A stretch of DNA of 64,000 nt. It comes from Verrucomicrobiales bacterium. Its GTDB lineage: Bacteria > Verrucomicrobiota > Verrucomicrobiia > Verrucomicrobiales > DEV007. Location: positions 434,001 to 498,000 of the forward strand of contig PAAG01000059.1 in NCBI GenBank assembly GCA_002698785.1, given 5' to 3'. How positions within the stretch are numbered: position 1 is the first letter of the stretch; each line of letters opens with the position of its first letter. Below the pieces are notes generated by a model, which saw only the letters and a program-made list of their open reading frames with translations, ran no database searches and was not told where the DNA came from. A program made the translations under genes and the position numbers. Positions 2,277 through 19,244 of this stretch are shown here, piece after piece.

Positions 2277-3041
2277 TCAGTTCTGAGGAAGAAGTGGATT
2301 CTGCGAAGCATACCACTCGTCGAATTCCTCGCCACTCACAGCCTTCACGTAAGCAACCATTTGAGCGTGTCCCGCTCCACAAAGCTGGGCACATACAATA
2401 TTCCATTCACCTTCCTTTTCAGGAACGAACCACATCGGAATCTCGGAACCCGGGATAGCATCCTGCTGGCTGAACATCGGAACGATAGCAAGGCCGTGGA
2501 TAACATCCTTCGATGTTACTTGGATCACTACCGGACGTCCGACAGGAATCACCAGCTCGTTCACGGAGACGAAGTCATCTTTTGCATTAGGATCCTCTTC
2601 GACCAATCCAACAGGATTGGCTCCGGAGTAGCGATCATTGGCAGTCATACCAACCATCTTATCCGCACCGGCATAATGGAAAGTCCAGCGATACTGCTCT
2701 CCCACCGCACGAAGATTCACCACATCGTCACCCGTAGGGCGCTCTTTCACATCGGCACGCTTCGCCCAGAGAGGGAACGCAAAACCAAGAAGAAGAACAA
2801 CCTCAACAATAACCACGCCAATCTCGACGTGAGTCGAAAAGTGGGAAGTCATGCCTGCATAACTCGCTTTCGGGCTCTTTTTCCTGCGAAATTTTACCAG
2901 GATCACAGCTAGGAAAATCGACCAGCCCACGAACAGCACTGCCATGAACCAATGGATAAGCGCCAGCATGTGATTGCCCACGTTTCCGTGACGCGAGGCA
3001 ATTTCATGCATTCCAGAGATGTCGTTAATCCACTCAATCAT
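2277..3041 (-). CDS. coxB: Cytochrome c oxidase subunit II (CuA subunit)
   Basis: Takes electrons from cytochrome c through the binuclear CuA centre and passes them to subunit I. The 254-residue protein has two N-terminal membrane helices (roughly 24-50 and 73-92) and a soluble cupredoxin domain. CuA ligands are all visible: His182 (VIHGLAI), then Cys217, Cys221, His225 and Met228 in CAQLCGAGHAQM. The bridging position usually occupied by Glu is Gln219, which binds by backbone carbonyl so is tolerated. There is no fused cytochrome c domain, so it is not a classic caa3 subunit; separate cytochromes c are encoded upstream in the operon. It is placed last in the oxidase group, after subunit IV and two tiny membrane proteins, instead of the usual place before coxA. 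Confidence 0.95.
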   Translation of the reverse strand: MIEWINDISGMHEIASRHGNVGNHMLALIHWFMAVLFVGWSIFLAVILVKFRRKKSPKASYAGMTSHFSTHVEIGVVIVEVVLLLGFAFPLWAKRADVKERPTGDDVVNLRAVGEQYRWTFHYAGADKMVGMTANDRYSGANPVGLVEEDPNAKDDFVSVNELVIPVGRPVVIQVTSKDVIHGLAIVPMFSQQDAIPGSEIPMWFVPEKEGEWNIVCAQLCGAGHAQMVAYVKAVSGEEFDEWYASQNPLLPQN

Positions 3042-3481: not shown

Positions 3482-3850
3482 CTATTGTTTTTCCGTCAGT
3501 GCTCCGTGAGTCGTTTGCAAAGTATCGTATTGCTCTACGATCGGATCCAAGTCGGCGAATATGGTGAGCACCATGAGACCGACGAAGAAAAGAAAAGTAA
3601 ACAGAAGGATCTTGTAGATCAGGCTCTTCTCATGATTCAAGTGCATGAAAATAAGAGCCACGAGGCTGGACTTCGCTACAGCAACGCTCAATCCCATAAC
3701 GTAATCACCCGCAGTCGGTCCGGGAGGGCCAACATCGAAGGCGTGGATCTTTGCGAGAGCCAGGGTGAGAACTGTGCCGACGAACAGAGCCCCACAAACA
3801 ATCATGTAGGACCTCTTATGCTTCGACCAATCGTGTGTGGATTCTGCCAT
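3482..3850 (-). CDS. Cytochrome c oxidase subunit IV, prokaryotic type
   Basis: A 122-residue membrane protein resembling prokaryotic cytochrome c oxidase subunit IV (CtaF/CyoD-like). It has a short charged N-terminus (MAESTHDWSKHKRSY) and three predicted helices. The second contains the family-typical VAVAKSSLVALIFMHLNHEKSLIYK, in which a His follows a long apolar stretch. The family stabilises the oxidase core and binds no redox centre. It is positioned directly after coxC, as usual for bacterial aa3/caa3 operons. Confidence 0.85.
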   Translation of the reverse strand: MAESTHDWSKHKRSYMIVCGALFVGTVLTLALAKIHAFDVGPPGPTAGDYVMGLSVAVAKSSLVALIFMHLNHEKSLIYKILLFTFLFFVGLMVLTIFADLDPIVEQYDTLQTTHGALTEKQ

Positions 3851-3886: not shown

Positions 3887-5347
3887 TTAGAAAAGGTAAA
3901 AGATCGGGAAGAGGAAGATCCAGATCAGGTCAACAAAGTGCCAGAACAGACCACCCACTTCGACCCGGTTGGCGAGATGTTCCGGATTCTTGAGGTAAAG
4001 TTTCTTTCCGAAAACGGTGAAGAAAAGAAGCACCAGCGCTCCACCAATCACGTGAAGACCGTGGAGGGCAGTCATCGTGAAGTAGATCGCGTAGTAGTTT
4101 CCGTAACGGGGGCCATGGTTGCCCATGAACTTGATCTTCTCGCGAGGAACTTCGATATATGCATGCTCACCGTGACCGTGGTCATCGTGAGCTTCTTCTG
4201 CAGCACCCTCAGCAGACGGCTTTGACTCGCTCTTATGGACATTTGCCTCTGCATGATGCTCTTCGTCATGATGCCCACCCATGTGCACCTTCTGGAGATT
4301 GAGCTTGTGACCACGAAGCATCTTCTCGGGAATCATCTCTCCCCTTGGCTCATAGTAGTCACGCATCTCCTTGTACATCTTCGCCTGCGCCTCAAAGAAC
4401 TGCTTTTTGACGGAATCATCATCAACCACTTCCCAGACCATGGAGTCCTTCTGCTTCTGCGGAAGAACCAACTGCATATCCACCTGGTGGATCTCAAACT
4501 TCACCGTGTCATCGATGAGCATTCCCTCCACTTTACTGCCATCCTTGTAATTCAAGGCGGAATCAGAATGTCCGACGATCTTCCGCGGGTTGCCGTGAAG
4601 CTTGAAAGGCTCTCCGGCAGTTAACGTCGCCGACGTGACAACACTCACTGGTGTTGGGTTTGCGTTCCCTGCATCGAGCTCGCTGCGATAACGCTTCCTC
4701 TCTTCAGCGAGACTTGAAGACGCTTCTCGCCGCTGCTTTAGATACCAGGATTTGAGATCAGAGTAGGAATTCAACTCTGTCCCTTCAGTCCCCTCAGGCC
4801 CTTCCTTAACGGTGAATGTAGGAAAGTCGCCATCAATATCTTTCAGGAATGCAGGCAGGGCACTCTGGAGGCTCATGGAAACTTCTTTGCCTTCAAATCG
4901 AATCTTATCGGTTTGATCCAGGATCTTCCCTTCTATCACCGAATTGTCCTGAAACTTGATTCCGTGGTGTTCGGTCAGCTTACTCTTATACTCGATCGTC
5001 TTGATGCACATGAAGGCCACCGCGCATGCGACCACGATGTACATCCAAGTCTGATAGGCTTTCCAGTTACGCTCTTTGAGAGCAACCCACGCGAAAACCA
5101 CCCCGACGGATGAGAAAATGAGCACCAGAGTGTTGATGAAACCCGCCCAGACGTAAGGTCCGTGCACGTTGTATCCCCATGGCCAAGGGTTGTCGACACC
5201 TTCCTGAACGCCAAGGCGAAGGAAAACATAGCCGGAGAAAAGTCCACCAAACAGCATCACCTCAGAGGCGAGAAAGAGCCATACGCCCAGCTTTGCATTA
5301 TACAGGCCGGTGTCCCGTCTCGGCGTTACTTCATAAGGGATCTCCAT
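3887..5347 (-). CDS. coxC: Cytochrome c oxidase subunit III with a ~270-residue insert
   Basis: Residues 1-130 and 403-486 together form a normal five-helix bacterial subunit III: LGVWLFLASEVMLFGGLFSGY near the N-terminus, then the ALHGLHVIGG helix and the final GGLFWHFVDLIWIFLFP helix. Between the third and fourth helices (about 131-400) sits a hydrophilic insert that ordinary subunit III, about 190-210 residues long, lacks. The insert contains two similar units, SVIEGKILDQTDKIRFEG and SKVEGMLIDDTVKFEIHQ, each followed by a V-x-M segment. It ends in a His/Asp/Glu-rich stretch (HHDEEHH, HDDHGHGEH). The frame is uninterrupted, so this is not an artefact of a stop or frameshift. Subunit III normally supports proton uptake and complex stability; the insert's role is unknown. 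Confidence 0.92.
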   Translation of the reverse strand: MEIPYEVTPRRDTGLYNAKLGVWLFLASEVMLFGGLFSGYVFLRLGVQEGVDNPWPWGYNVHGPYVWAGFINTLVLIFSSVGVVFAWVALKERNWKAYQTWMYIVVACAVAFMCIKTIEYKSKLTEHHGIKFQDNSVIEGKILDQTDKIRFEGKEVSMSLQSALPAFLKDIDGDFPTFTVKEGPEGTEGTELNSYSDLKSWYLKQRREASSSLAEERKRYRSELDAGNANPTPVSVVTSATLTAGEPFKLHGNPRKIVGHSDSALNYKDGSKVEGMLIDDTVKFEIHQVDMQLVLPQKQKDSMVWEVVDDDSVKKQFFEAQAKMYKEMRDYYEPRGEMIPEKMLRGHKLNLQKVHMGGHHDEEHHAEANVHKSESKPSAEGAAEEAHDDHGHGEHAYIEVPREKIKFMGNHGPRYGNYYAIYFTMTALHGLHVIGGALVLLFFTVFGKKLYLKNPEHLANRVEVGGLFWHFVDLIWIFLFPIFYLF

Positions 5348-5405: not shown

Positions 5406-7319
5406 TCAATGTGCCGCAGGTTCAGGCTCGGAATCGCCAACTGTCGCGGCTTCTCCTTCGAACTGCGGACTGAAATCTTCGTCAGCATCAGGGACGCTAT
5501 ACTCGTAAGGTCCACGATATGCGACAGGCTCGGAAGCGAAGTTACCATGTGGCGGAGGAGTTGGCGTAGCCCACTCGAGAGTCGTCGCATCCCATGGGTT
5601 GTCGTTCTTTACCTTATCGCCTTTGAAGACACTGATGAAAAGGTTGATGATGAATGGGACCTGCGCCACGGCGAGCAACCAGGCGGAGCCCGAAGTCACG
5701 ATGTTCAGATCGATCATGCGAACCGGCGCATCTGCTGGAATCACGTGAAGCAATTCGCAGATATTCGCGATAAACGTATTTGGCTCGGCGAAGATCTGAT
5801 TACTGATCTGCTCATACGCCTTACCACCATCGAAAGCACGGCGGTGGAAACCTGCCATCCCCTGGAAGAACATCGGGGCAAAGATCCCGTTCATGAACAA
5901 GAGAGAAGGCCAGAAGTGAAGATGGCCGAGCTTTGTGCTCATCATGCGCCCGGTAATTTTCGGGAACCAGTGATAAATTCCAGCAAACAGCCCGAAGATC
6001 GTTCCCGGGGCCACCACATAGTGGAAATGACCAATCACATAATAAGTGTCGTGGAGGTGAAGGTCCGGCAAACTGAAAGCCAGTGGTAGACCTGTCAGAC
6101 CACCAATACCGAACATCGGAATGAACGCCGTTGCGAACAACATCGGCACGGTAAAGCGGATCGAACCACCCCACATCGAAATCAGGAGCGAGGTCACCAG
6201 AATCACCGAGGGCACCGAAATCAACACCGTCGTAGTCTGGAAGAAGGTCGAAACCGCTGGTCCCATACCCGTGATATACATGTGGTGCGCCCACACAATA
6301 AAGGCGAGGAACCCAAGCACCATCACGGCATACACCATCGTCTTGTAGCCCCAGAGAGGCTTACGAGTGTTGCACGGAATGATCTCCGCCACGATCGCAA
6401 TCGCCGGCAAAATCAAAACATACACCTCAGGGTGAGCGAGGAACCAGAAGAGGTGCTGATACAAGAGCGGACTACCACCTCCCGCAGCATCGAACGACAT
6501 GCCGCTAACATTCAGACCGGTCGGAATGAAGAAACTAGTGCCGGCCATCCGGTCCATGAGCTGCATGATAGCTGCGACCTCCAGTGGAGGGAAAGCGAGC
6601 AGCAGTAGGAAACCTGTTACCAGCATCGCCCATACAAAGAATGGAAGACGCATCCAAGTCATCCCGCGGCAACGCAGGTTGATGATCGTACAGATAAAGT
6701 TCACCGCACCGAGAAGCGATGAGGAAATCAACAGAGCCATACCGACCAGCCACTGGGTCTGGCCCGTCCAGAAGAGGTCGCCGTAATGGATGTCCGTAGT
6801 GGTCGCCAAGGGCGAATAGTTTGTCCATCCAGCCTTCGCAGCACCGGAAGGAAGGAAGAAACTCACGAACATCAGAGCACCACCGAGCAGATACAGCCAG
6901 TAACTGGCCATATTCAGACGAGGGAACGCCATATCGGGCGCGCCAATCTGTAGAGGCGTCACATAGTTACCAAACGCACCAAATGCAAGAGGCACAATAC
7001 CAAGGAAGACCATAATCGTCCCGTGCATGGCACCGAACATATTGTAGAGGTCACCGGTGACCTTCCCACCGTCGTCAAGCCACGCCTGAAACCACGGCAG
7101 ATCAGCAAGCAAAGGCACTGCACGGTCTGGATAGGCGATACTCCACCGCATCACCATCATCAAAAAGAATCCGAATGCGAGGAACACCAGAGAGGTGAAC
7201 CCGTACTGGATGCCGATCACCTTGTGGTCGGTCGAGAAGATGTATTTTTTCCAAAACGGATCCTCATGATGATGTTCATCATGGGCGTGTTCGGCATGTT
7301 CAGTCGCAGTTGCGCTCAT
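5406..7319 (-). CDS. coxA: Cytochrome c oxidase subunit I (aa3-type)
   Basis: Catalytic subunit of a heme-copper oxygen reductase, 637 residues with about 12 membrane helices. All active-site motifs are present: AMHGTIMVF (low-spin heme ligand), HPEVYVLILP (CuB His and the cross-linked Tyr of A-type enzymes), AHHMYITGM (two CuB His), and HDTYYVIGHFHYV (heme a3 and heme a ligands). The N-terminus is His-rich (EHAEHAHDEHHHEDPF), matching the His-rich insert of subunit III; metal storage or copper loading is a possible reason. The C-terminal 80 residues are acidic and soluble. Gene order coxA-coxC-subunit IV is standard. Confidence 0.97.
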   Translation of the reverse strand: MSATATEHAEHAHDEHHHEDPFWKKYIFSTDHKVIGIQYGFTSLVFLAFGFFLMMVMRWSIAYPDRAVPLLADLPWFQAWLDDGGKVTGDLYNMFGAMHGTIMVFLGIVPLAFGAFGNYVTPLQIGAPDMAFPRLNMASYWLYLLGGALMFVSFFLPSGAAKAGWTNYSPLATTTDIHYGDLFWTGQTQWLVGMALLISSSLLGAVNFICTIINLRCRGMTWMRLPFFVWAMLVTGFLLLLAFPPLEVAAIMQLMDRMAGTSFFIPTGLNVSGMSFDAAGGGSPLLYQHLFWFLAHPEVYVLILPAIAIVAEIIPCNTRKPLWGYKTMVYAVMVLGFLAFIVWAHHMYITGMGPAVSTFFQTTTVLISVPSVILVTSLLISMWGGSIRFTVPMLFATAFIPMFGIGGLTGLPLAFSLPDLHLHDTYYVIGHFHYVVAPGTIFGLFAGIYHWFPKITGRMMSTKLGHLHFWPSLLFMNGIFAPMFFQGMAGFHRRAFDGGKAYEQISNQIFAEPNTFIANICELLHVIPADAPVRMIDLNIVTSGSAWLLAVAQVPFIINLFISVFKGDKVKNDNPWDATTLEWATPTPPPHGNFASEPVAYRGPYEYSVPDADEDFSPQFEGEAATVGDSEPEPAAH

Positions 7320-7397: not shown

Positions 7398-7412
7398 GGA
7401 GGCTCAGCCTCC
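7398..7412 (-). terminator. Small hairpin at the end of the cytochrome c gene
   Basis: A 15-nt near-perfect palindrome (GGAGGCT.AGCCTCC) overlaps the TGA of the monoheme cytochrome c gene and lies in the 84-nt gap before coxA. There is no clear T tract, so it may act in mRNA processing or partial termination rather than full termination. It is the largest gap inside the respiratory operon apart from the coxB-ctaA junction. Confidence 0.3.
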
Positions 7413-8156
7413 CCCTACCGGGTCACCAGTTTCTAAATCCACTTTGGCACCAGAGAGATTCGCGTCCGCAGGGATAGCCAGAAGCTCTGCTTCCGTGTAA
7501 GGCCCTGTGTGCGCGCCAAACTCATCGCGTGCCGCCTTCATCATTTCGGTGGTTACTACGCCATCCTCACCTTCGGGGAGACTCCCGAAAGAGCGGCGCA
7601 CATACGTTACCACTTGAGCAAGCTTCTCATCGCTGAGGTTATTCCACGGCGGCATGAGCTGATTATAGGTCTGCCCTCCTACCTTGAGAGGTCCGTTGAT
7701 ACCATGCAGCATGATAGCCCCGAGGCGCTTCGTGCCGCCATCAACCCATTCTGAGCCAACCAAAGGAGGAAACTGCCCGGGAATACCAAGACCGGACGCC
7801 TGGTGGCAGGCAATACAGTTATTGTAAACCTTTTTACCGTCACTCATCCAGTCCTCGATCCATGCGACCTGCTCTTTCTCCGCAGCGTCGCCACCAAGAC
7901 TTGGGCGCGGCATCGGCTGATAATCCTTCGTGAGATAAATGTTGGAACTGAAGCCCGAACCATTCGCAACGAAGGTCTGGAAAATTTGCCCCCCACCGAT
8001 AATCAGGATGAAACAACAAATAACGACCGCAGCCATACCAATCCTGCCCTGTCCACCCTTGTCGAGAGGGTTTTCACGACGAACGGAATCATGCAGGTCG
8101 ACGGCACTTACCGTCCCAGTTTCGTAATCGATGTTTTTTTCTTCGGGGCTATCCAT
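7404..8156 (-). CDS. Membrane-anchored monoheme cytochrome c
   Basis: A 250-residue protein with a cytoplasmic N-terminus, one membrane helix (about 38-61) and a periplasmic class I cytochrome c domain. The heme-binding CIACH is at residues 114-118, and the distal Met is probably in QLMPPWNNLSDEKLAQVVTYVR. It resembles the cytochrome c domains found as CcoP-like or caa3-fused electron donors. It lies between the CcoO-like and coxA genes, so the likely role is to carry electrons from ACIII or the CcoO-like protein to CuA of the aa3 oxidase. Confidence 0.9.
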   Translation of the reverse strand: MDSPEEKNIDYETGTVSAVDLHDSVRRENPLDKGGQGRIGMAAVVICCFILIIGGGQIFQTFVANGSGFSSNIYLTKDYQPMPRPSLGGDAAEKEQVAWIEDWMSDGKKVYNNCIACHQASGLGIPGQFPPLVGSEWVDGGTKRLGAIMLHGINGPLKVGGQTYNQLMPPWNNLSDEKLAQVVTYVRRSFGSLPEGEDGVVTTEMMKAARDEFGAHTGPYTEAELLAIPADANLSGAKVDLETGDPVGGG

Positions 8157-8196: not shown

Positions 8197-8820
8197 TCAA
8201 CCACCTGTTGCCACTACTGCAGGCAGAGGCTGGTCTTTCTTGAGGGAAAGGAGGTAGTCGACGAGGGCTTCAGCTTTCTCTGTCGGCTCGTATCCTTTTC
8301 CAAAAGGTGAGTCCTTGTAGAGATGCTTGTAGGCCGGCATCCCACTGTTCCTGTCGATGCCTTTCGGATTGTAAAGGTGCTCATGCATGAGTGCACGGTC
8401 AGTGATTCGATTACCCACATTGGCCAGGTCTGGACCAATCCGCTGGTAGCCGAGTGGCGCGTATTTTTCGGTAACGTAATCCTGAGGACGAGTCTCGCGT
8501 GCAAATCCATCGTCCTCTCGACCTCCCCAACCTGGACGCCACATGTCTGGCCCTGCATAGGTCGGACGTACCATCTGGGTATGACAGTAAGCACACCCTT
8601 CGGACGCATAGATGTCACGACCATAATCACTCGCTCCGTGACGAAGAAGGTTCTTATCCGGATACTGAGTCATCCCCCCATCGGGTAACTCGTCCTCCGC
8701 GTAAGCGACCGGTTCGAGTTTCGCCAGAGAAATGTATGGAACGAGCACAAGAAGCAACCATGGAATGGCGAAAGCCACTCCCAGAGCCATGAGCAATTTC
8801 CAGAACTTTGAAGAATCCAT
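8197..8820 (-). CDS. CcoO-like membrane cytochrome c (cbb3 subunit II family)
   Basis: With the start at 8820 (19 nt after the preceding stop) the product is 207 residues: one N-terminal membrane anchor (about 7-30) and one c-type heme motif, CAYCH at residues 76-80, in the FixO/CcoO pattern YASEGCAYCHTQMVRP. A distal Met is likely in RNSGMPAYKHL, and YPDKNLLRHG is also typical of CcoO. In true cbb3 oxidases CcoO feeds the CcoN catalytic subunit. Its partner here has lost the oxygen-reduction site, so CcoO may serve as a wire to the neighbouring aa3 oxidase. An in-frame upstream TTG/ATG would extend the protein by 20 residues into the previous gene and is less likely. Confidence 0.88.
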   Translation of the reverse strand: MDSSKFWKLLMALGVAFAIPWLLLVLVPYISLAKLEPVAYAEDELPDGGMTQYPDKNLLRHGASDYGRDIYASEGCAYCHTQMVRPTYAGPDMWRPGWGGREDDGFARETRPQDYVTEKYAPLGYQRIGPDLANVGNRITDRALMHEHLYNPKGIDRNSGMPAYKHLYKDSPFGKGYEPTEKAEALVDYLLSLKKDQPLPAVVATGG

Positions 8821-8839
8821 GTAAGAAAGTAAAACTATA

Positions 8840-10300
8840 TCAACTGAGTCCCGCTGCGGCGCGCGCATCTGCCGCTGCACCAGGCTCGGAGTGAATCAAG
8901 GTAGGTCCGTCCGTCTTTCTTCCCTTGCCAACGAACATCAGTCCGAGCTGATAAAGGAAGGCGAAATTCGAAAAGGAGATCAGGCCCCAAGCAATACAGC
9001 GCCCAACCATGTATGCCGAGGAATTCACGAAAGAGGTGGAAAAATCACGATCCCACTGTGCCATGTCACCGCCCTGAGCAATACCACCAACCAACATGCA
9101 GACAACCATGGTGATAATGCCGTATGTGCTGAACCAGAAGTGAGTCCGAATCCGGGAACCGGAAGGCCACTCAGCGTTGGTGATACGAGGAACAATAAAG
9201 TAGATCGCTCCGAACACTGTCATGGAGAAAAATCCGTAAAATGCCAGTGTATCGAGCCCAATCTGAAAGTGGCTGAACTGAAGATCTTTCCCGAAAGTGA
9301 ACGTCGAACTCAACGCAGCGAGAACGGCATACACAACGAACATAAGCATTCCCATCACGGTGAATCGGAGTGAAGGGCTATATTCCCAAAGCTTTGTCTG
9401 CCCTTTCAACGAGGGAAGAAAATTCGCAACAGTCGCCACAACAGCGAGGAGAATAAAGATGGAAGCAGCTCCACTCACCGCCGGAATCCACGCGGGGAGA
9501 GGTCCACCCATGTAGCGGGAGAATCCCGTCCATCCTGCCAGAACCGCAAGGATCCAGAACCCAGCCTGCGCCAATGGGTAGCTGTAAATAGGACGAGCTG
9601 TGATTTTCGGGATAATGTAGTAAGCCACTGCGAGAGCGATCGGCCCCATCCAGAAGTAAATCAGATTGGAAATATACCAGGCGTCAGTTCCCGCACCCAT
9701 CACAGGGGAAGCCCCCTTATTAATGAGGAGGTTGGCAGCCACGAAAATCCATGGAAACCATACCGCTGCACCGACGAGATACATTTCCGATACGTAGACG
9801 TAGGAATTTCTCCGTGAACGGAACATCGGGATAAGCCACACAACAATCAAAGCGTAGGTAAGCGCCATCATCGGCCACACCCATACCGGAAAATCAAGAA
9901 GAGGAATGGAGCGACCGTATCCTGCCCAGACGCTGAGAACAGCAAGACTGATGATGAAGTTCCACAGATGGCCCATCACAATCATTGTCGTGCCATAGCG
10001 CAATTCGTTTTTGGTGAGTCGAGCCATCAACCACAACATCACCCCAATTCCAGCCTGCATCGCCCAACCGTATACAAGGGCAATCATGTGCATCGGGAAC
10101 AGGCGACCGTAACCAAGAAAAGGACAAGAGTCGAACAAGCTGGGAACGCAGAGCTTCAACGAACTGAAGAAGCCGAGAATAGTGGCAACGAACAACCAGG
10201 CTGCAGCACTCGTGAAAAAGAATAAAACAGGATACCGGGCGGACCGGTCGATCGCCGCCCGTTCTTGCATCTCTTCAACTGTCGGTTTTGGCACTGTCAT
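8840..10300 (-). CDS. CcoN-like protein lacking the CuB site
   Basis: A 486-residue, roughly 12-helix protein of the heme-copper oxidase subunit I superfamily, closest in look to CcoN (GYGRLFPMHMIALVYGW near helix II; IPKITARPIYSYPLAQAGFW; FGAIYFIVPRI). The second-helix His (His71) for a low-spin heme is present. The CuB ligands are not. The helix VI segment (about 209-241) contains no His, where CcoN has the GHN ligand. The helix VII segment reads GWTGFSRYMGGPLP where CcoN has a His-His pair. The late H-x-H heme motif is absent; the nearest is SHFQIG with His344. It therefore cannot reduce oxygen by the known mechanism and may instead move electrons or have a structural role. It follows the K/A/P/E-rich gene and precedes the CcoO-like gene by 19 nt. 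Confidence 0.85.
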   Translation of the reverse strand: MTVPKPTVEEMQERAAIDRSARYPVLFFFTSAAAWLFVATILGFFSSLKLCVPSLFDSCPFLGYGRLFPMHMIALVYGWAMQAGIGVMLWLMARLTKNELRYGTTMIVMGHLWNFIISLAVLSVWAGYGRSIPLLDFPVWVWPMMALTYALIVVWLIPMFRSRRNSYVYVSEMYLVGAAVWFPWIFVAANLLINKGASPVMGAGTDAWYISNLIYFWMGPIALAVAYYIIPKITARPIYSYPLAQAGFWILAVLAGWTGFSRYMGGPLPAWIPAVSGAASIFILLAVVATVANFLPSLKGQTKLWEYSPSLRFTVMGMLMFVVYAVLAALSSTFTFGKDLQFSHFQIGLDTLAFYGFFSMTVFGAIYFIVPRITNAEWPSGSRIRTHFWFSTYGIITMVVCMLVGGIAQGGDMAQWDRDFSTSFVNSSAYMVGRCIAWGLISFSNFAFLYQLGLMFVGKGRKTDGPTLIHSEPGAAADARAAAGLS

Positions 10301-10335: not shown

Positions 10336-10941
10336 TTATTCAGCTTTTGGCTGTTCTTTAGGGGCTGCCTTCTCTTTGGCCTTTGCCTTCGGAGCAGCCT
10401 TCTCTTTTTCCGCAGGCTTGGGAGCGGCTGGCTCAGCTTTCGGAGCTGGAGCTGCTTTTGCCTTCTCCTTTTCTTTGGAAGCTGCTTCAGGTTTCTTTTC
10501 TTCGGGCTTCGGCGCAGGCTTTGCCTCCTCTTTCGCCTTCTCCGGCGCTGCAGGCTTGTCTTCAGCAGGCTTGTCTTCAGCAGGAGCCGCTTCAGCTTCA
10601 GGAGCAGGTTGCTGAGACTGCTTTAAAAAAGTAGGGCTACCAGGAATAACAATCTCTGATTTCTTCGGAGCTGCCGGAGCCTTTACAAGCTCCACCATAG
10701 CCTTGCTGAGTTTTTCCTCATCTATCGCACCGGACTGCGCTTCGCTGACTTCTTTGAGATTAGCCCAACGAGTGTCGATCGTTTCCTGATCAAACTCTCC
10801 TTTATAGGCACGGTCCTCGAGACTCTCGTGGCCGACAAATCCAGACAAAATCAGAGTCAGGAAGCCAAAGAACGCAAACACTCCCACTGTTCCGAGGACC
10901 AGTTTCAGTGTCGAACCAGACGTTTTGGTTTCAAAGCTCAT
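10336..10941 (-). CDS. Membrane-anchored Lys/Ala/Pro/Glu-rich protein
   Basis: A 201-residue protein with one N-terminal membrane helix (about 13-34), a short folded-looking segment (GHESLEDRAYKGEFDQETIDTRW) and, from about residue 85, a very low-complexity tail of K, A, P and E, including a tandem AEDKPAEDKP. It sits between actF and the CcoN-like gene in the respiratory operon. No family is recognised. The tail resembles flexible linkers of TonB- or PDH-E2-type proteins and could tether cytochromes or ACIII to the oxidase in the periplasm. This is inference from composition and position. Confidence 0.75.
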   Translation of the reverse strand: MSFETKTSGSTLKLVLGTVGVFAFFGFLTLILSGFVGHESLEDRAYKGEFDQETIDTRWANLKEVSEAQSGAIDEEKLSKAMVELVKAPAAPKKSEIVIPGSPTFLKQSQQPAPEAEAAPAEDKPAEDKPAAPEKAKEEAKPAPKPEEKKPEAASKEKEKAKAAPAPKAEPAAPKPAEKEKAAPKAKAKEKAAPKEQPKAE

Positions 10942-10966: not shown

Positions 10967-12478
10967 TCAGTTAACCACGTTCAGGGATTCATCGAGGCGA
11001 GGGTCGCGACAAGGGAAGAGGCTCGCAGAGGCCAAGACCTTCAGCAAAACAAACCCAAAGAGACCCGCCACACTAATGAATGCGAGGAGATCCAGCCAAA
11101 ACGCTCCCGGAATCGTCATCAGCATCTCACCCTTATCTGCAGTGAGGGAAGGTCCACGCTCAGGGATGATGATCCAGTAAAGATCGAGGAAGTGCATTGC
11201 AAGGTTCCAGATCGCAACCGCTGAGATCACCATAGGAAGCTTTTTCACCTTACGCAGCAAGAGAATCGCGAAAGGAATGAAGAAGTGGCCCACGACAAGG
11301 AAGGTGACCGTGTAAGTGTTCCAGAATTCAGTATTTCTCGTGAGATAGAATTTCGTTTCCTCGGTGATGTTCGCATACCAGATCAGGAAGAACTGGGAGA
11401 AAGCGATGTATGCCCAGAAGATGACGAAGGCGTGCATCAGCTTACCCATGAGGTGGTAGTGCTCCATCGTTACCACATTCTTCAGGTATCCCGCCTTACG
11501 CAGAGCCGTGAGAATGATGATGAGAAGCCCCATCGAGTTAAGAGCCGCACCAGCGAAGAGATATACCCCCCACATGGTCGAGAACCAAGTGTAGTCCAGT
11601 GCCATCAGCCAATCGAACACCAGGAATGTCCAGGCCGTAGCGAAAAATGGGAGAAATCCACAACTCCATCGACGCATCCAACGGAACCACTTCGGATCTG
11701 CATCCTTGTCGTTCTTAGTCGACCACATACGCAGGACGTAGGCAATACCTCCCAGTGCGATCACATAGAAGAAGAAACGAACGTGCCAGGCACTCCCGTT
11801 CAAGTATGCCCGCTTGGCGAACAACAGAGCTGCTTCTTTCTGAAAATACTTATCGGTGAGAGTCGCAATAGCGCCTTCGTCAGATAGGTCTTCCTTTTCC
11901 AGCTTCGCCACTTTTTCCTCGAGAGTCGCGATCTTACGATCGAAATAGGCACGATGACCAGGTGTTGGGCTCTCAATCGCAGCGAGCTCACTCTTCGCCT
12001 TATCCAACTCGGCCTTCGCCTCATCGATTCCAGCCTTACCCGCTTCTTGATACTCGACCTTGTGCTCCTCTGCCTTATGCGCAGCCACCTCGAGTGCCGC
12101 CTCACGCTTCGGGAACCACTCCCAGAGCGCATCACGAAACGATGGGACAAAAATGATAGGCAACGAAAGAATCATCACGAACGGAATCATGATCGCGAGA
12201 TTCTCCATGAGGCGTCGAACAACTGTTCCCCACCCCGAGTTACTTGCGTGGTGAAGCAGCGTCCAGAACAGTCCCCCAACAGAAAGGCTGAGGAAAAAGA
12301 TCACAGCGAAGAGCCAGCTGTAACCCATAGCACCCCTCATCCCCTCAGCAAAAATGCTGATAAGGAAGAAGATCACAGTTCCGACAACACCTACACCCAA
12401 CGTTGCAAGCTTCAGGACCGCAGGAGCCTTGAAAAACTCCCCATCCTTAAAGTCGTCGCCATCTTTCAATCCTGCCAT
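10967..12478 (-). CDS. actF: Alternative complex III subunit F (quinone-binding membrane subunit)
   Basis: ActF of the alternative complex III, a quinol:electron-acceptor oxidoreductase that replaces the bc1 complex. The 503-residue protein has about ten membrane helices related to the NrfD-like ActC. Typical segments are LFWTLLHHASNSGWG, KRAYLNGSAWHVRFFFY, WLMALDYTWFSTMWG, and FSQFFLIWYANITEET. Between helices 4 and 5 (about residues 125-212) there is a long Lys/Glu/Ala-rich heptad-like stretch (KAELDKAKSELAAIE, KIATLEEKVAKLEKE) that should form a coiled coil, where usual ActF proteins have a short loop. It follows actE by 34 nt. Confidence 0.93.
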   Translation of the reverse strand: MAGLKDGDDFKDGEFFKAPAVLKLATLGVGVVGTVIFFLISIFAEGMRGAMGYSWLFAVIFFLSLSVGGLFWTLLHHASNSGWGTVVRRLMENLAIMIPFVMILSLPIIFVPSFRDALWEWFPKREAALEVAAHKAEEHKVEYQEAGKAGIDEAKAELDKAKSELAAIESPTPGHRAYFDRKIATLEEKVAKLEKEDLSDEGAIATLTDKYFQKEAALLFAKRAYLNGSAWHVRFFFYVIALGGIAYVLRMWSTKNDKDADPKWFRWMRRWSCGFLPFFATAWTFLVFDWLMALDYTWFSTMWGVYLFAGAALNSMGLLIIILTALRKAGYLKNVVTMEHYHLMGKLMHAFVIFWAYIAFSQFFLIWYANITEETKFYLTRNTEFWNTYTVTFLVVGHFFIPFAILLLRKVKKLPMVISAVAIWNLAMHFLDLYWIIIPERGPSLTADKGEMLMTIPGAFWLDLLAFISVAGLFGFVLLKVLASASLFPCRDPRLDESLNVVN

Positions 12479-12512: not shown

Positions 12513-13136
12513 TTAGTTTCCGGAAGCTGCCTGGAGCGCTTTCAAGTAGGCCGTGATCGCCCAGCGATCTTTTACAGGGATCACCCCGTTGTAAGGACCC
12601 ATGAGCCCTTTTCCGTGAGTAATCGTCCAGAAAATCTGTCCCTCAGGCATCGCGATTACCCTGGGGTCGATCAGGTTCGCAGTCGGAGGAATCGCCCAGT
12701 ATTTGGAAACAACACCTTGGCCATCACCCGAATCTCCATGACACGGTGAACAGCTGATGTGAAACCTTTCCTTTCCTCGAGCGAGGAACTCTTCATCGAT
12801 CTTCACTTCTTCAGGGAAGCCAGAGCCATAGAAATCACCAAACTGACCCGTGTTGTAATAGTCATCACCACGGCTGTAATCGAGGTCTGTAGAAAGATTC
12901 CCCTCATTACCTTCATGCGGAAAAGCGAAACCAAGCGGGACCGTGCCTTCGACCGGCTTACGCGCTACCTGTCCATCAGCAAAGAAGGAACTCGGCTCCT
13001 GAGGACGCTTCTTGAACTGGTGGTCCATGTCAGGAAACAGCTCAAACGGAGGGTCCGAAAACTTTTCGCCCCGCGGGCCAAGCGCGTAGACGGTTGCGAC
13101 CACCGCAATTGCCAATATGAGAAAGAACCAACGCAT
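12513..13136 (-). CDS. actE: Alternative complex III monoheme cytochrome c subunit
   Basis: ActE, the small cytochrome c of alternative complex III. The 207-residue protein has an uncleaved or signal-like N-terminal helix (residues 3-19) and one heme motif, CSPCH at residues 129-133, in a class I cytochrome c fold (RGKERFHISCSPCHGDSGDGQG). The proposed distal Met lies in the C-terminal half (AMPEGQIFWTITHGKGLMGPY). It would deliver electrons from the ACIII heme chain to the downstream cytochromes or oxidase. The gene is tightly packed between actD (13 nt) and actF. Confidence 0.93.
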   Translation of the reverse strand: MRWFFLILAIAVVATVYALGPRGEKFSDPPFELFPDMDHQFKKRPQEPSSFFADGQVARKPVEGTVPLGFAFPHEGNEGNLSTDLDYSRGDDYYNTGQFGDFYGSGFPEEVKIDEEFLARGKERFHISCSPCHGDSGDGQGVVSKYWAIPPTANLIDPRVIAMPEGQIFWTITHGKGLMGPYNGVIPVKDRWAITAYLKALQAASGN

Positions 13137-13149: not shown

Positions 13150-13707
13150 TCAGTAAGCTACTTCTTCAACTGTCCCCGCACCCAATTCACCGAGAAATTC
13201 TTTCGTTTTGTCCTTCTTGAATTTCGGATCTCTGGCTTCGATCACCATGATGAAACCATCATCAGAAAACTTGAGGAACAAGGGTGAGTTGAAAAGCGGA
13301 TGGTTCCATCTCGGGAGCATGATAAATGTGAACAACCCGAACACCACCGCAAACGCCGACAGTAAAATTGTGAGTTCAAACGTCACCGGGAAAAATGCCG
13401 GGATCGTAAATAGGTTTACCGGCTTATCCTGCACAACAGTTGGATAAAGCGAAACCTGGGTAAAGAACTGCAAAAACAGAGCAAGGGACGAACCGCAGAT
13501 ACCACCTACAAGAACAACCGCGGACAACCAGCTCTTCCCAAGCCCCATCGCATGGTCGATGCCATGAACCGGATAAGGAGTGTGAACGTCCCAGCGACGG
13601 AAGCCGGCATCACGAACCTTCTCCGCAGCGTGGTAGAGCTCACTGGCAGAACCGAACTCGGCCACATACCCGAAGAGGTCTTTCGAACTGGATGATGAAT
13701 CGCTCAA
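13150..13707 (-). CDS. actD: Alternative complex III subunit D (DUF3341)
   Basis: ActD is a membrane subunit without cofactors. The 185-residue protein begins with a ferredoxin-like cytoplasmic part (LFGYVAEFGSASELYHAAEKVRDAGF), then the conserved DVHTPYPVHGIDHAMGL, then two helices (about 55-78 and 103-127), matching DUF3341. The start is a TTG at 13707. An in-frame stop only 18 nt upstream and the family-typical N-terminus leave no ATG or GTG option. The gene is followed by actE after 13 nt. Confidence 0.93.
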   Translation of the reverse strand: MSDSSSSSKDLFGYVAEFGSASELYHAAEKVRDAGFRRWDVHTPYPVHGIDHAMGLGKSWLSAVVLVGGICGSSLALFLQFFTQVSLYPTVVQDKPVNLFTIPAFFPVTFELTILLSAFAVVFGLFTFIMLPRWNHPLFNSPLFLKFSDDGFIMVIEARDPKFKKDKTKEFLGELGAGTVEEVAY

Positions 13708-13744: not shown

Positions 13745-15184
13745 TTATGCAGCCGATCGTCTCTTCTCACGGAGCTTCTTCCAATCTGGGTAGTGCGGAT
13801 CATTCTCCGGCAACACGCCCTTCACCTCACTCGCCGCAATCACCGGCAAAAATCGGATGAAGAGAAGGAACAGCATCATAAACATTCCAAAGGTGCCAAG
13901 GAACATGAGCTTCTCCACCCAAGACGGAGAGTAGTAGCCCCACTGCCCAGGAAGGAAGTCACGGGCAATCGATGTCGGGATAATCACAAATCGCTCAAAC
14001 CACATCCCTGCGTTCACAAAGTTACAGATAATGAACACCACCCAGAAGTTCGCACGGCACCACTTGAACCAGAACACCTGCGGAGCAATCACGTTACAGA
14101 AGAACATGCAGTAGTAAGCCCAAGTGTAAGGACCGGAAAGAATACGAAGGTGGAAGGCATCAGCCTCGAATTTGTTCGCACCATAGTAACTGATGAACAG
14201 CTCCATGATGTAGGCGTATCCCACAATCGTTCCCGTCAGGAGAATGATCTTCGCCATGTTGTCCACGTGCTTCGCCGTAATCAGGTCTTCCAGACCGTAG
14301 AGCTTACGGACAGGGAGCATCAGCGTAAGCACCATTGCGAACCCACCGAAGATAGCACCCGCAACGAAGTAAGGCGGGAAGATCGTAGTGTGCCAACCGG
14401 GAACAACCGAAGTCGCAAAGTCGAACGAAACGACCGAGTGCACAGAAAGAACCAGCGGGGTCGACAACGCAGCGAGCAGCAGATAAGCCATCTCGTAGTG
14501 ACGCCACTGGCGGTTACCACCGCGCCATCCCAAAGCGAAGAATCCGTAAAGGAACTTGGCCAGACCCTTCTTCGCACGATCACGAAGAGTAGCCAGATCC
14601 GGAATAAGACCGATGTACCAGAAGATCACAGATACAGTGAAATAGGTCGAGACAGCGAAAACGTCCCAGAGCAGCGGGCTCTTGAAGTTCTGCCAGATCC
14701 CGTTCGCATTCGGAACTGGAGCCAGGAACCAGACCATCCAGAAACGACCAACGTGGAAACCAGGGAAAATCCCCGCACACATCACCGCAAAAAGAGTCAT
14801 CGCCTCTGAGGCTCGGTTCACAGACGTCCGCCATTTCTGACGTGTCAGGAAGAGAATCGCCGAAATCAGCGTTCCTGCGTGACCGATACCGATCCAGAAA
14901 ACGAAGTTCACAATCGCCCAACCCCAGGCAACCGGCTGGTTGTTCCCCCAGACCCCAACACCAGTCGAGACGAGGTAAACCAAGGTAAAGAGAAGACACC
15001 CGAAAAGCGCGACGGAAGGCACGAAGAGCACCCACCAGATCAGTGGCTGACGGTTTTCAACGATGCCGCAGATCCGATTGGTGATCCAACCCATCGAACG
15101 GTTATTGAGCACCAGAGGCTCACGTGCCACTCCCTCCGCCTCGGAAGGATGGACACTGGTCTCAGCTGTATTGGTATCTGCCAT
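13745..15184 (-). CDS. actC: Alternative complex III subunit C (NrfD-like)
   Basis: ActC is the NrfD/PsrC-like integral membrane subunit that contributes the quinol site of ACIII. It is 479 residues long with about ten helices. Family-typical segments are visible: [26 protein letters not shown] (with a conserved His), [19 protein letters not shown], and [19 protein letters not shown]. It lies 20 nt after actB and 37 nt before actD, the standard ACIII order. Confidence 0.95.
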
Positions 15185-15204: not shown

Positions 15205-18200
15205 TTAGTGCATCTTGGAAGTCACGGTTCCAACCAGCTTAGCACCCGGCATCTTCGGATTAGGGTTCTTGATGCGCGCTTGGAAGCTGGTTCTCGGACG
15301 CGTGCCGATATACTTCAAAAGATCGTAATCGCGAGGATTCTTTTTGCCTGCGACGGAATTAATTTTGTCTTTCGGATTCTTAAGGTTTCCGAACACGATA
15401 GCTCCGGCTCCACAGGAGTCCTGACAAGCTACTGTAAAGGAGTCTGCTTTCACCTGCACGTCATTCGAATCTTGCGCAGCAGCCTTGGCCGCAATCTTGG
15501 CAGCACTGATTCGCTGAACGCAATAGGTGCACTTTTCAATCACGCCACGCATGCGGACCGTAACGTTAGGGTTCTTCTGGAAACGCTGAGTCGTTGTCGC
15601 GTTACCAGCCGCAGGAGCAAGCGGCCCCAATTCGATCTGATCGATCGGGCGCTTGTTGTAATCGTAATAGTTAAATCGACGTGCCTTGTATGGGCAGTTG
15701 TTCGCACAGTATCGAGTACCGATACAACGGTTGTAGGTCATCGCATTCAACCCGTCACCCGTATGCACAGTTGCATTCACAGGACAAACCGTCTCACAAG
15801 GAGCTGATTCACACTGCTGACAAGCTACTGGCTGAGAAATCATCTCCACGTGATCATCATCAACGCGTCGTTGACCAGGAGTATCTTGAGTCGATTCCTT
15901 CTGTGTAATGTAATCCCAGGCTGTTCCCCGCTCGGCAACAGTTTCTTTGTCTTTCGGACTCGTGAAATAGCGATCCATACGGATCCAATGCATCTCACGG
16001 CCAGCAATAACCTGATCTTTTCCAACAATCGGAATGTTATTCTCTGCCTGACAGGCAATCACGCATGCGTTACACCCGGTGCAGGTGTTCAGGTCGATCG
16101 TCATCGCCCACTGGTGATTCGGATCCGCACGAAACTCGTGACCAGGAAGCACACCCACATAAGGATTCTTCTGGGTGCCACCATTCTTATAATCCGGCCC
16201 TTCGTAGAGAGAAGTATTCTTGGGAATGTGATGATCCATCCCCTGGTGAGCGGCAAAATGAGGGTCTTCCTCATACATTTCAGCCGTGCCTTCGCGGGCA
16301 ATCGCACGACCCTCCATGCTGTAATGCTCAGCGGTCAACGCCAACTCGTGAGAGCGCCCAAGCTTGCGAAGCATTACACCAGACACAACCAATGACTGAG
16401 CTGTAGTCATCAAAGGGTAAGCATCAAAACCAACACCAGAACTCACAGTTCCCGTCGCCTTGCCCCCATAATAACCAACCGCCAGGCTGATACAGAAATC
16501 AGCATGCCCGGGTGCCTTGAGAATCGGAGCGACCACCTTACGATCTCCCACCGTCAACTCGACGAGATCTCCGTTCTCCAGCTTGAGGACTTCAGCAGTG
16601 TAAATACTTACGAGAGCAGCATTATCCCAAGTGAGCTTAGTGATTGGATCAGGAGCCTCTTGCAACCAGCCGTTATTCGCGAAACGACCGTCGTAAGTAG
16701 TGCCACCCACAGTCAAAACAACCTCAAGACCTTCCGGATGAGGAAGATCCGCAACCGTAACTGCTCCAATTTGACCAACCTCTCCTGAAAAATCCTTCTT
16801 CGGAAGAGATGCACCTTTTGCAAAACCATCACGCAGAGCCGCCGTCCAGTCACTTCCTCCGACCTCCGCAAAGGTATCCTTCACCCAACCGAAAATCGCT
16901 TCTTCGGATGCCTCCTCATTAAACAGGGAGAGAAGAAAAGCATTAATCGAAGTTCCGCCCCAGAGCGGTGTAATCATCGGCTGCTGCACAGAGTATACTC
17001 CGGAGAGACTGAAGAAATCCCCCCAAGCTTCAAGATAGTGAGTTTCAGGAACGTGCCATGTGGCCAACTTCGCGGTTTCATTCACGTGATACCCGAGATG
17101 GACAACAGTTTTTACACCAGCAAGCAAATCAGCAAAACCTAGATCTGCAGGCGCATCAAATGCCACATCCCCTTCATTCAAAATGAAAAGTGTTTCAACC
17201 TCGCCCGCATTGAGAGAATCAGCCAAATCCTTGATTCCAGCATTCTCCGGCAGCTTGTGATCCACCACAGAAACAAACGGACCATAGGCACCAAGAGCAG
17301 AGTTAATCGCAGCAACAAGAAGGTGAACCTCCTTGGACTGCCGCCCTCCAGCAAGGACGACAGAACCTCCCGGCTGGGAAGCCAGATCTGCCGCACACTC
17401 CTGAATCCATTCCAAATTGTAAACTGAGGTTACGACACCCTTAAGAACAGCATCCGCAGCAGCTGTCAGCGCACCATCACCCAGAGCACCACCCAATTCC
17501 TTCGCAATCAGGGCAGCAACAGGAAGCACCTGCGAAGCAGCCAATCGATAACGATGATCTGCCATGCCACCCGTCAAAGTAAATGCAGACTCGACAGAAT
17601 AGAGACGATTGATCTCCTCATTCTTCTCGGGGTTCCGACCAGCCGAGAATTCGCTTTGCGCATCCTCACCTATCGTTTCATAACCGAGAAAATCGCAATT
17701 AAGGGAAAGAACACGCTTTGCCCCCTTCAAACTCACGACAGGTAATGCACCAGCACCATACAAATCAGCAGCAGCAGCAAGAGCACCCTCAGGTCTCAGA
17801 GCCTCGTAGGCGTAAAACTTTGCACCAGCATACTTTTTCGCTACTTCCTCACGCAGACGAAGCGTTGTAGGCGAAGTCGTATCGGACACAAGGAATGCGA
17901 CCTTATCACCAGACGCACCTTCACGGAACCCCTTCAAGAATTCCTCAAAGTCAGCCTTGGTAGTTTCCTTACCTCCAGAAAGATACCCTTTCGAGCGATC
18001 CTGGTCATACAACTCCAAGATAGAAGCTTGAGTGAAAGCGGAAGACCCCCCACTCACAGCTGGATGAAGACGATTCCCATCCACCTTCGTCGGACGCCCT
18101 TCGTAAGTCGTCACAACGAGAGGATCGCAACCCAGACCATTCAATGCCGGCTTGGCAGAAGAATAATAAAGAGCCTTACCCGGAATCACCCATTCCACAT

Positions 18201-18453
18201 GCTCATTGTAAGGAACAAGCTCTTGAATAGGACGCTTACAAGCGACACCAAAACCAGCGAGAGCCGTCGAAGCCCCCATCAGCTTCACAAAACTCCTGCG
18301 TGAAGTCTCATCCATCTCCAGCTCCTGAGCCCCCTGCGGAAACTCACGCTCAAGCCATTGATTGAACTCCTGCGAACCCTCAAGTTCACCGAGACTCCTC
18401 CACTGGATTCGTGAAGATTCCGGTTCTTCCGGATGTTGCCACTTACGCTTCAT
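15205..18453 (-). CDS. actB: Alternative complex III iron-sulfur subunit ActB
   Basis: The largest ACIII subunit (1082 residues), a fusion of a molybdopterin-oxidoreductase-like domain without a bound Mo cofactor in known ACIIIs (about 60-720) and a C-terminal ferredoxin-type domain (about 780-1040). A twin-arginine signal (SRRSFVKLMGAS, about 51-62) follows a long cytoplasmic N-terminal segment. Cysteine clusters for four Fe-S centres are visible: CTGCNACVIAC, CQQCESAPCETVC, CIGTRYCANNC and CTYCVQR followed by ACQDSC. In ACIII these carry electrons from the quinol site to the cytochrome subunits. It follows actA after 29 nt. Confidence 0.95.
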   Translation of the reverse strand: MKRKWQHPEEPESSRIQWRSLGELEGSQEFNQWLEREFPQGAQELEMDETSRRSFVKLMGASTALAGFGVACKRPIQELVPYNEHVEWVIPGKALYYSSAKPALNGLGCDPLVVTTYEGRPTKVDGNRLHPAVSGGSSAFTQASILELYDQDRSKGYLSGGKETTKADFEEFLKGFREGASGDKVAFLVSDTTSPTTLRLREEVAKKYAGAKFYAYEALRPEGALAAAADLYGAGALPVVSLKGAKRVLSLNCDFLGYETIGEDAQSEFSAGRNPEKNEEINRLYSVESAFTLTGGMADHRYRLAASQVLPVAALIAKELGGALGDGALTAAADAVLKGVVTSVYNLEWIQECAADLASQPGGSVVLAGGRQSKEVHLLVAAINSALGAYGPFVSVVDHKLPENAGIKDLADSLNAGEVETLFILNEGDVAFDAPADLGFADLLAGVKTVVHLGYHVNETAKLATWHVPETHYLEAWGDFFSLSGVYSVQQPMITPLWGGTSINAFLLSLFNEEASEEAIFGWVKDTFAEVGGSDWTAALRDGFAKGASLPKKDFSGEVGQIGAVTVADLPHPEGLEVVLTVGGTTYDGRFANNGWLQEAPDPITKLTWDNAALVSIYTAEVLKLENGDLVELTVGDRKVVAPILKAPGHADFCISLAVGYYGGKATGTVSSGVGFDAYPLMTTAQSLVVSGVMLRKLGRSHELALTAEHYSMEGRAIAREGTAEMYEEDPHFAAHQGMDHHIPKNTSLYEGPDYKNGGTQKNPYVGVLPGHEFRADPNHQWAMTIDLNTCTGCNACVIACQAENNIPIVGKDQVIAGREMHWIRMDRYFTSPKDKETVAERGTAWDYITQKESTQDTPGQRRVDDDHVEMISQPVACQQCESAPCETVCPVNATVHTGDGLNAMTYNRCIGTRYCANNCPYKARRFNYYDYNKRPIDQIELGPLAPAAGNATTTQRFQKNPNVTVRMRGVIEKCTYCVQRISAAKIAAKAAAQDSNDVQVKADSFTVACQDSCGAGAIVFGNLKNPKDKINSVAGKKNPRDYDLLKYIGTRPRTSFQARIKNPNPKMPGAKLVGTVTSKMH

Positions 18454-18482: not shown

Positions 18483-19244
18483 TCATCGGTGACAGGCCGC
18501 ACAATCCTGAGGTGGATGCACATCCCATGCTTGTTGCAGGTGCGCACCTATCAGCTTGCGGTCCCACTTCTTCCCGGCATCCGACTCTTTCAAGTCCTCA
18601 ACCGACTCGCCCGTCTTGCCGGCGATGTAGGCGTAAAATTCATCTTGGTCCAGATCATCTTCACTCCAGTCCAGATTAGTCACTTCATCAATAGGACGCA
18701 GAACCTTCTCAGGATTTCGGTGACAATCCAGACACCAGCTCATACTCAAAGGCTTAGCGTGATACACGACCGGCATCTCGTCAATCCGCCCGTGACATTC
18801 AACACAGCTGACACCGCGATTCACGTGAACTGAGTGATCGAAATACGCATAGTCAGGAACCTTGTGAATCTGCACCCACTCAATCGGCTCTCCGGTGTAA
18901 TTCTCGTAGTTCTCATCCATCGCCTGACGCAGGGGCTCAAGCTTCGGAGAATCAGACTTCACCTTCCCTGGACCATGACAGTTCCAGCAAACCTGTGCCG
19001 CCGGAATGTTGGAGTGAAGGGAGTCCTCCACAAAACTGTGACAGTAGCGGCAGTCCATTCCGAGCTGACCAGCATGAAGACTGTGATCAAAAGGAATCGG
19101 TTGCTGCGGCATGTACCCGACCCGCGTGTATTTCGGGGTCCAAGAATACCAAGCGACGGCGATAACGCATGTCCCGAGAGCCCCGAGACATATCAGAATC
19201 TTTACAGCGAGGTAGTTTGTCCAGCGTGGAAAAATATTGCCCAT
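18483..19244 (-). CDS. actA: Alternative complex III pentaheme cytochrome c
   Basis: ActA, the pentaheme cytochrome of ACIII and first gene of the operon. The 253-residue product has one N-terminal membrane helix (about 11-33) and five C-x2-C-H motifs: CRYCH 65-69, CWNCH 86-90, CVECH 147-151, CLDCH 171-175 and CAACH 248-252, the last one residue from the C-terminus. Extra His residues (HSLH, DHSVH) are probable distal ligands. I chose the ATG at 19244; a TTG four codons upstream is the only alternative. A perfect Rex-type palindrome begins 28 nt upstream of the start codon. Confidence 0.95.
   Translation of the reverse strand: MGNIFPRWTNYLAVKILICLGALGTCVIAVAWYSWTPKYTRVGYMPQQPIPFDHSLHAGQLGMDCRYCHSFVEDSLHSNIPAAQVCWNCHGPGKVKSDSPKLEPLRQAMDENYENYTGEPIEWVQIHKVPDYAYFDHSVHVNRGVSCVECHGRIDEMPVVYHAKPLSMSWCLDCHRNPEKVLRPIDEVTNLDWSEDDLDQDEFYAYIAGKTGESVEDLKESDAGKKWDRKLIGAHLQQAWDVHPPQDCAACHR

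Follow-up and report, generated by a model that had tools for sequence, protein, structure and literature searches.

Does the CcoN homologue that follows the ACIII genes in this Verrucomicrobiales genome belong to a terminal oxidase, or has it become part of something else? Papers count ACIII-adjacent genes of this kind as cbb3-type terminal oxidases, and how ACIII passes on electrons in this phylum is a directly testable question. In the window (the whole stretch of 64,000 nucleotides analysed here), the gene encodes a protein of 486 amino acids (8840..10300, minus strand; identified by ORF, Pfam and structure alignment) that resembles cbb3 subunit I without most of its metal ligands. We consider it rather probable that this protein is a former cbb3 subunit I, retained, without heme or copper, as a membrane scaffold for the CcoO-like protein and cytochrome c at the exit of ACIII.

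Gene content of the locus

The genes form a single-strand cluster (minus strand) in the order ActA-ActB-ActC-ActD-ActE-ActF, a one-TM protein, the CcoN homologue, a CcoO-like protein, a cytochrome c and the genes of an aa3 oxidase (subunits I, III, IV and II, with CtaA and CtaB). Assignment to ACIII follows from the presence of ActA to ActF in order together with an NrfD-like ActC (13745..15184; PF03916, 82.4 bits). The multiheme c protein ActA (18483..19256) has several CxxCH motifs by reading and is otherwise placed by gene order, ActB (15205..18453) was recognized by size, Fe-S cysteine motifs by reading, and gene order, and the c-type cytochrome ActE (12513..13136) by gene order and a CSPCH motif by reading. 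Gene order also identifies ActD (13150..13707) and the ACIII membrane subunit ActF (10967..12478), the latter giving no match in a Pfam scan.

Between ActF and the CcoN homologue lies a protein with one TM segment and a Pro/Ala/Lys-rich tail (10336..10941; sequence reading), for which a Pfam and NCBIfam scan returned no family over cut-off. Downstream of the CcoN homologue are a CcoO-like membrane-anchored mono-heme c protein (8197..8880, although the true start may be internal; PF02433 FixO, 62.1 bits; CAYCH at residue 96) and a mono-heme cytochrome c (7404..8156; PF00034, 45.2 bits; CIACH at residue 114) with a hydrophobic N-terminal stretch by sequence reading. A preliminary description of this DNA had reported such a co-encoded heme CcoO-like protein, which the FixO match bears out. 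Subunit I of the aa3-type cytochrome c oxidase (5406..7319) scored 434 bits to PF00115 and 552 bits to TIGR02891, below the cut-off of 671. Subunit III (3887..5347) matches PF00510 in two stretches separated by a large insertion, and translation of that insertion reveals a His-rich stretch. The subunit IV-like (3482..3850) and subunit II (2277..3041) genes were named from sequence reading and gene order. Another contig of the same genome carries a ligand-complete CcoN inside a 929-aa frame.

Cofactor ligands and predicted structure

The window protein matches Pfam COX1 at 131.5 bits (cut-off 34.8; match spanning 25-433), and this score and its predicted fold place it among the subunits I of the heme-copper oxidase superfamily. 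Its NCBIfam ccoN score of 108.5 bits lies far under the cut-off of 583; a ligand-complete relative (L061) also falls under it (235.1 bits), so this cut-off is not diagnostic here. Ligand columns were assigned by residue-by-residue alignment with PDB 3mk7 and 9g6b and then with relatives, the ligands being H60, H207, Y251, H257, H258, H347 and H349 in P. stutzeri CcoN numbering.

At these seven positions complete enzymes read H,H,Y,H,H,H,H and the window protein reads H,S,A,S,R,L,T. Among the CuB ligands, the helix VI His is replaced by S211 and the His-His pair by S261 and R262, the column of the helix VII Tyr holds A255, and the helix X H-x-H columns hold L349 (heme b3 axial) and T351 (second heme b ligand). 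H71 in helix II, aligned to its ligand column, is the sole ligand His left of six. The alignment thus upholds the preliminary description on every residue that it named: no His in helix VI, GFSRYMGG where the His-His pair belongs, no late H-x-H, and a remaining His71. The helix X H-x-H motif of cbb3 oxidases provides one ligand to heme b3 and the other to low-spin heme b. Since the motif serves both hemes, the window protein is predicted from its sequence to have no complete site for any of the three metal cofactors, and the replacement of the Tyr and of every ligand His but one would make it non-catalytic, as had been proposed.

Displaced ligands were considered and rejected. CuB histidines elsewhere in the helices would have contradicted the original reading; the whole protein contains only five His (71, 111, 344, 387 and 470), insufficient for three CuB ligands plus heme ligands, which excludes a displaced CuB set.

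The CcoN fold is nonetheless predicted to persist without the ligands. An AlphaFold2 model of the window protein (80-sequence alignment) had a mean pLDDT of 94.3 and pTM of 0.93; Foldseek with this model placed 3mk7 on top, and VIA-align against 3mk7 gave Z 48.2 and rmsd 1.9 over 442 residues. For comparison, a model of ligand-complete L061 (pLDDT 86.5) gave Z 51.5 and rmsd 1.6 over 443 residues. The best structural matches of the window model were CcoN chains (Z 46.7-48.2). Identity as a nitric oxide reductase NorB was rejected, as the ligand columns are empty and NorB structures scored lower (Z 40.6-42.4). Relative to cbb3-type (C-family) CcoN, the window protein shares the predicted fold, the COX1 match and the CcoO-like partner gene, but is without five of six ligand His, the Tyr and, at the locus, ccoS; of the features of a functional cbb3 oxidase only the CcoO heme c partner is found, the CuB ligands, the heme b3 ligand and one of the two heme b ligands being missing as well.

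Relatives at the same operon position

A search with the window protein matched 60 of 194 genomes of the phylum at E ≤1e-10, canonical CcoN included, and with a ligand-complete relative as query, 282 out of 384 genomes in the class had a match at 1e-40. The sample consisted of 40 wide loci, the best 80 of at least 582 named ACIII loci found via ActC, and a further 80 from the top of the 1e-40 list plus one from genome G072; because loci were picked from the top of match lists, class counts are not unbiased frequencies. The 158 aligned CcoN-like rows comprised 72 ligand-complete, 71 emptied (defined as retaining 0-3 of the six ligand His), 13 heme-b-only and two partial rows, with 61 of the complete rows being of ACIII type and the other 11 not. 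The preliminary description had called for a check of conservation in other verrucomicrobial ACIII operons, and the emptied class, at 71 of 158 sampled rows, provides it. Chance or sequencing error in the window protein was rejected on the same count, since these 71 rows, window included, keep at most three of six His. Within the emptied class, 28 rows keep none of the six, 34 keep one, six keep two and three keep three; given the nine rows with two or three His, the emptied state is graded. Three emptied rows with two or three His left (L055, L112 and L266) retain parts of the CuB ligand set, a mixed decay.

Among named loci, an ActF-adjacent CcoN homologue was seen in verrucomicrobial records and in L099, titled Gemmata. 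A locus titled Ignavibacteria (L119) has a canonical CcoN about 2.6 kb after ActF, and in many loci whose titles name other phyla, ActF is followed by Cox2-Cox1-Cox3. Two loci of genus g165 were partial: L245, with one ligand changed and ccoS present, and L252, with two positions changed near a contig end. Both are draft sequences whose changes may be errors, and they were not scored as losses.

Conservation was analysed by column with the 61 ACIII-type complete rows, the eleven rows of other types being left out. The ligand columns are invariant in 61/61 complete rows; among the 71 emptied rows, the six ligand columns fall at the 67th-90th variability percentile and the Tyr column at the 31st. 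Variability in emptied rows also extends to position 68 of the window protein, an Arg in complete rows, and to 207 (Trp there), 295 (His) and 434 (Arg), among others. Conversely, 37 positions that are near-invariant in complete ACIII-type rows are also conserved in emptied rows. Such shared positions, N293 and H387 among them, a fold that is predicted to be kept, and a Lys at the K232 column in 61/71 emptied rows could point to a new chemical or ion-conducting role beyond that of a scaffold, for instance passage of protons or sodium beside the NrfD subunits. We regard this as unlikely; as a weak counterargument, Gly, Pro, Trp and further aromatics make up most of the 37 positions, which is what packing predicts.

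In the heme-b-only class both heme b His are invariant (13/13 rows), and four positions that once held ligands have become fixed as Asn, Gln, Arg and Tyr; from its sequences the class is predicted to be in a one-heme state. Its members include L058 (7973-9472), L088, L091, L255 and L263; genome G502 has two copies, the complete L246 and the heme-b-only L263. These proteins share with the window protein the operon place and the absence of ccoS and of a binuclear centre, but keep both heme b ligands. This sister clade, together with retention of H71 in the window and of His in that column in 15/71 emptied rows, would fit an alternative in which the emptied CcoN binds one low-spin heme b through H71 and another ligand and carries electrons from quinol or ACIII to the CcoO heme c. 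T351, however, occupies the column of the second ligand, whose variability in emptied rows (90th percentile) exceeds that of the other six, and H344 lies seven residues ahead of that column by alignment. Several other positions near helix X that are invariant in the complete class also vary. H71 could still bind a heme together with a residue other than His, but we hold a carrier of this kind to be distinctly unlikely. The electron-transfer module suggested in the preliminary description is thus unsupported as far as a one-heme CcoN is concerned, given T351.

Absence of ccoS

The ACIII-adjacent complete CcoN proteins (e.g., L061, L062 and L209) have operon place and neighbours in common with the window and show 29-37% identity to its protein (15 rows, one alignment), but possess all ligands and ccoS. 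CcoS acts in the insertion of cofactors into cbb3 oxidases. A profile scan of the locus found no ccoS gene near the window CcoN homologue. Across loci with ActF in view, a ccoS-like ORF was present in 55/55 complete, 0/69 emptied and 0/13 heme-b-only loci (counts uncorrected for kinship), and in the one partial locus (1/1, L245), which keeps five of six His. Best profile scores were 25.7-118 in complete loci and at most 12.7 in emptied loci. One complete locus, L248, was not scored owing to a length filter. Four seeds went into the profile; three came from complete ACIII loci that were then counted (L061, L068 and L101), which leaves 52 of the 55 positives as seed-independent. Of three seed ORFs scanned with Pfam FixS, two pass the cut-off and that of L061 lies below it. 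Where ActF was not in view, ccoS-like ORFs occurred in 8/17 complete rows, 11 of which are of non-ACIII type, and in 0/2 emptied and 0/1 partial rows. Pfam FixS gave sub-threshold matches only in the window's own genome, although a canonical CcoN is present there. Absence of ccoS is expected for emptied proteins, into which no cofactor would be inserted, and a ccoS-like ORF is also absent at L070 and L266, whose losses were separate or probably so (see below).

Selection and phylogeny

The drift of ligand residues, and the position of several emptied rows on long branches, might be taken as marks of a decaying, functionless remnant. Two observations argue against this reading and make it extremely improbable. 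Open frames of at least 430 aa are kept in 69/71 emptied rows (exceptions L053 and L084), and dN/dS in the emptied class, at 0.06-0.19, is near that of the ligand-complete class, at 0.04-0.19. In full, the ratios were 0.058-0.188 for emptied rows (7 pairs, two of which are one comparison, L041 and L115 being identical), 0.038-0.194 for complete rows (28 pairs, including non-ACIII rows L042-L046, with 9 further pairs undefined for lack of dS) and 0.056-0.148 for heme-b-only rows (26 pairs); dS is high in many pairs of every class, so the ratios are rough. The emptied CcoN gene thus appears to be under purifying selection. In the L084 locus (14544-16041), from the draft genome of Chthoniobacter flavus Ellin428, the frame of the CcoN homologue is split in two.

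Of the 84 rows that are emptied or heme-b-only, 82 fell into a single clade (SH-aLRT 99) in a tree of all 158 rows, computed with ligand columns removed under plain LG+G4. A mixture-model tree of 87 of 88 rows, leaving out one L106 fragment, recovered the same clade with 53 rows and a support of 96; several emptied rows sit on long branches in it, and branches that meet call for caution. The emptied L070 sits within a ligand-complete clade, and a single origin was rejected for it by a constraint grouping it with 15 sampled rows of the big clade (p-AU 8e-11, 39 rows). For L266, the single-origin constraint was weakly rejected (p-AU 0.033), and this row is probably a further separate loss. Ligand loss thus arose at least twice independently. 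Heme-b-only rows nest in the big clade, along with L259 and L264, which miss one or both heme b ligands, so that heme b loss seems to have followed loss of the O2 site, and to have been recurrent, as far as the tree is right.

Partner proteins and proposed role

In contrast to the CcoN homologue, its CcoO-like partner keeps the heme c motif. CXXCH is present in 71/71 emptied, 67/67 complete and 11/11 heme-b-only rows in which a CcoO-like protein was found; two heme-b-only loci have no CcoO-like gene in view, and at the complete locus L235 the motif was missed under a different neighbour rule. Electron transfer through the partner is therefore likely, the part of the proposed electron-transfer module that holds. 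The axial Met column of the CcoO-like protein has Met in 62/67 complete and 49/71 emptied rows, the remaining emptied rows having Cys in nine cases, His in five, Arg in four, and Lys and Ser in two each, and the heme site appears from these sequences to be changing too in emptied loci. Cys or His in this column may represent ligand swaps of heme c. Most loci, complete and emptied, also have an ORF with one hydrophobic stretch between ActF and CcoN, often with a motif like YAWIDQ..G.VRIPI.RAMELT, although at some complete loci the ORF taken as the intervening one is the ccoS-like ORF.

The fixed operon place between ActF and CcoO could also suit a protein that helps to assemble CcoO, ACIII or aa3, or chaperones them transiently, and is absent from the mature complex. 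Against this, the complete relatives at that place resemble real oxidase subunits with a CcoO partner, and we find such a role very doubtful.

An intact, selected but emptied oxidase subunit in an ACIII operon suggests instead an enzyme turned structural part, and the structural subunit offered in the preliminary description is the best-supported reading of the evidence, from which we infer the role itself. Under this model, the starting point would be a cbb3-type oxidase subunit I within a combined ACIII-cbb3 operon, which would have lost its O2-reduction site first and heme b afterwards. ACIII would oxidize quinol and pass electrons to its c hemes (ActA/ActE), while the emptied CcoN, presumably devoid of heme in the real protein, would dock at ACIII and position the CcoO-like heme c and the next cytochrome c. 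From the CcoO-like heme c and cytochrome c, electrons would reach another oxidase, in the window the co-encoded aa3 enzyme.

The neighbouring aa3 oxidase that the preliminary description mentioned is real in the window, but only 10/30 emptied loci with room downstream (window included) have an aa3 subunit I within 5.5 kb, compared with 0/11 complete loci and 0/1 heme-b-only loci; these counts cover only loci with such room, are uncorrected for kinship and were not used as proof. The other 20/30 emptied loci are without a nearby aa3 subunit I, a point against the model. The Flavobacterium johnsoniae ACIII-aa3 supercomplex likewise pairs ACIII with an aa3-type partner, and the excerpts available of its descriptions make no mention of a CcoN-like subunit (PMC8498564, PMC8361435).

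More tentatively, and as something we hold possible rather than probable, Verrucomicrobiota may have made a terminal oxidase into an ACIII part stepwise: the O2 site and ccoS would have been lost, leaving a heme-b-only form (maybe a b/c module from quinol or ACIII to CcoO) and then a cofactor-free scaffold, with the Methylacidiphilum "cbb3 oxidase" being such a scaffold. The natural series of complete, heme-b-only and empty forms in one operon place makes the passage from enzyme to structural subunit testable.

Implications for methanotrophs and Opitutaceae

A C-type oxidase together with ACIII was noted only for verrucomicrobial methanotrophs and Opitutaceae in the available part of PMC8498564, and, according to an excerpt of PMC6688271, its presence fits the observed high O2 affinity of these methanotrophs. 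The methanotroph "cbb3-type cytochrome c oxidase" beside ACIII is published as an oxidase in the sections available of PMC8498564, PMC6688271 and PMC11102522. In the genomes that fit this description, the ACIII-adjacent protein resembles that of the window in its position next to ACIII and aa3 and its CcoO-like partner, but its ligand positions are occupied by S,E,S,S,H,F,V. In the accessible portions of open-licence PMC papers, we found no report of ligand loss in ACIII-adjacent CcoN.

The genomes in question belong to family f5 (1.9-2.5 Mb; 41-42% GC in the three ACIII loci read), in which PF02461 (pmoA/amoA) was detected in 5/5 genomes tested; from size, GC and pmoA/amoA we infer that its genus g13 is Methylacidiphilum. 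This set of residues, S,E,S,S,H,F,V, was seen in all four g13 loci read (L048, L049, L050 and L288), and seven further f5 genomes matched the ligand-complete query. No NCBIfam ccoN match was found for the Methylacidiphilum-like copies (L049 at E 1e-8; L288 at E 0.001), nor a Pfam COX1 match for L288 at E 0.01. They are placed in the family because L049 matches Pfam COX1 (51.4 bits) and aligns with L058 by BLASTP (25% identity, 487 columns, 2e-55), and because of their matches to the window protein and FixO-positive neighbours. In each of four Methylacidiphilum-like genomes (G042, G054, G072 and G152), the single match to the window protein is the ACIII-adjacent copy, and a search with that protein detected no canonical CcoN; in other genomes it matches long-frame canonical CcoN at E 1.9e-12 to 7.4e-28. 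An f5 genome of another genus (G008) had no match to the window protein. Six of 25 COX1 places in five f5 genomes were read, giving one A-type, two B-like, two NorB-like (a sequence reading, with no family match) and one unclassified.

Since these four look-alike genomes have the emptied form and no canonical CcoN was detected in them, the "cbb3-type oxidase" beside ACIII in Methylacidiphilum is probably not an oxidase. For Opitutaceae, six records whose titles name Opitutaceae, Opitutus or Cephaloticoccus (L100, L102, L104, L105, L107 and L115) have the emptied form, and the L041 protein of family f6 is identical to that of Cephaloticoccus primus (L115). As complete forms with ccoS also occur in f6 (e.g., L062, L064 and L066), the published statement on C-type oxidases can apply to part of the Opitutaceae and fail for the rest.

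These findings go beyond the preliminary description in establishing a widespread class, complete and heme-b-only relatives at the same place, the loss of ccoS and a consequence for published annotation. If the proteins are empty, arguments on O2 affinity that rest on an ACIII-adjacent "cbb3" no longer hold for the methanotrophs in question, and the ligands should be checked in the respiratory inventories of many other Verrucomicrobiota. At L288, a nos cluster (8847-16144) is inserted between an ActF-like ORF, identified by reading, and CcoN, including a nitrous oxide reductase (TIGR04246, 957 bits, cut-off 625) and nos-like genes. This arrangement resembles that of M. caldifontis IT6, for which a cbb3-type oxidase is named beside ACIII in the available text of PMC11102522.
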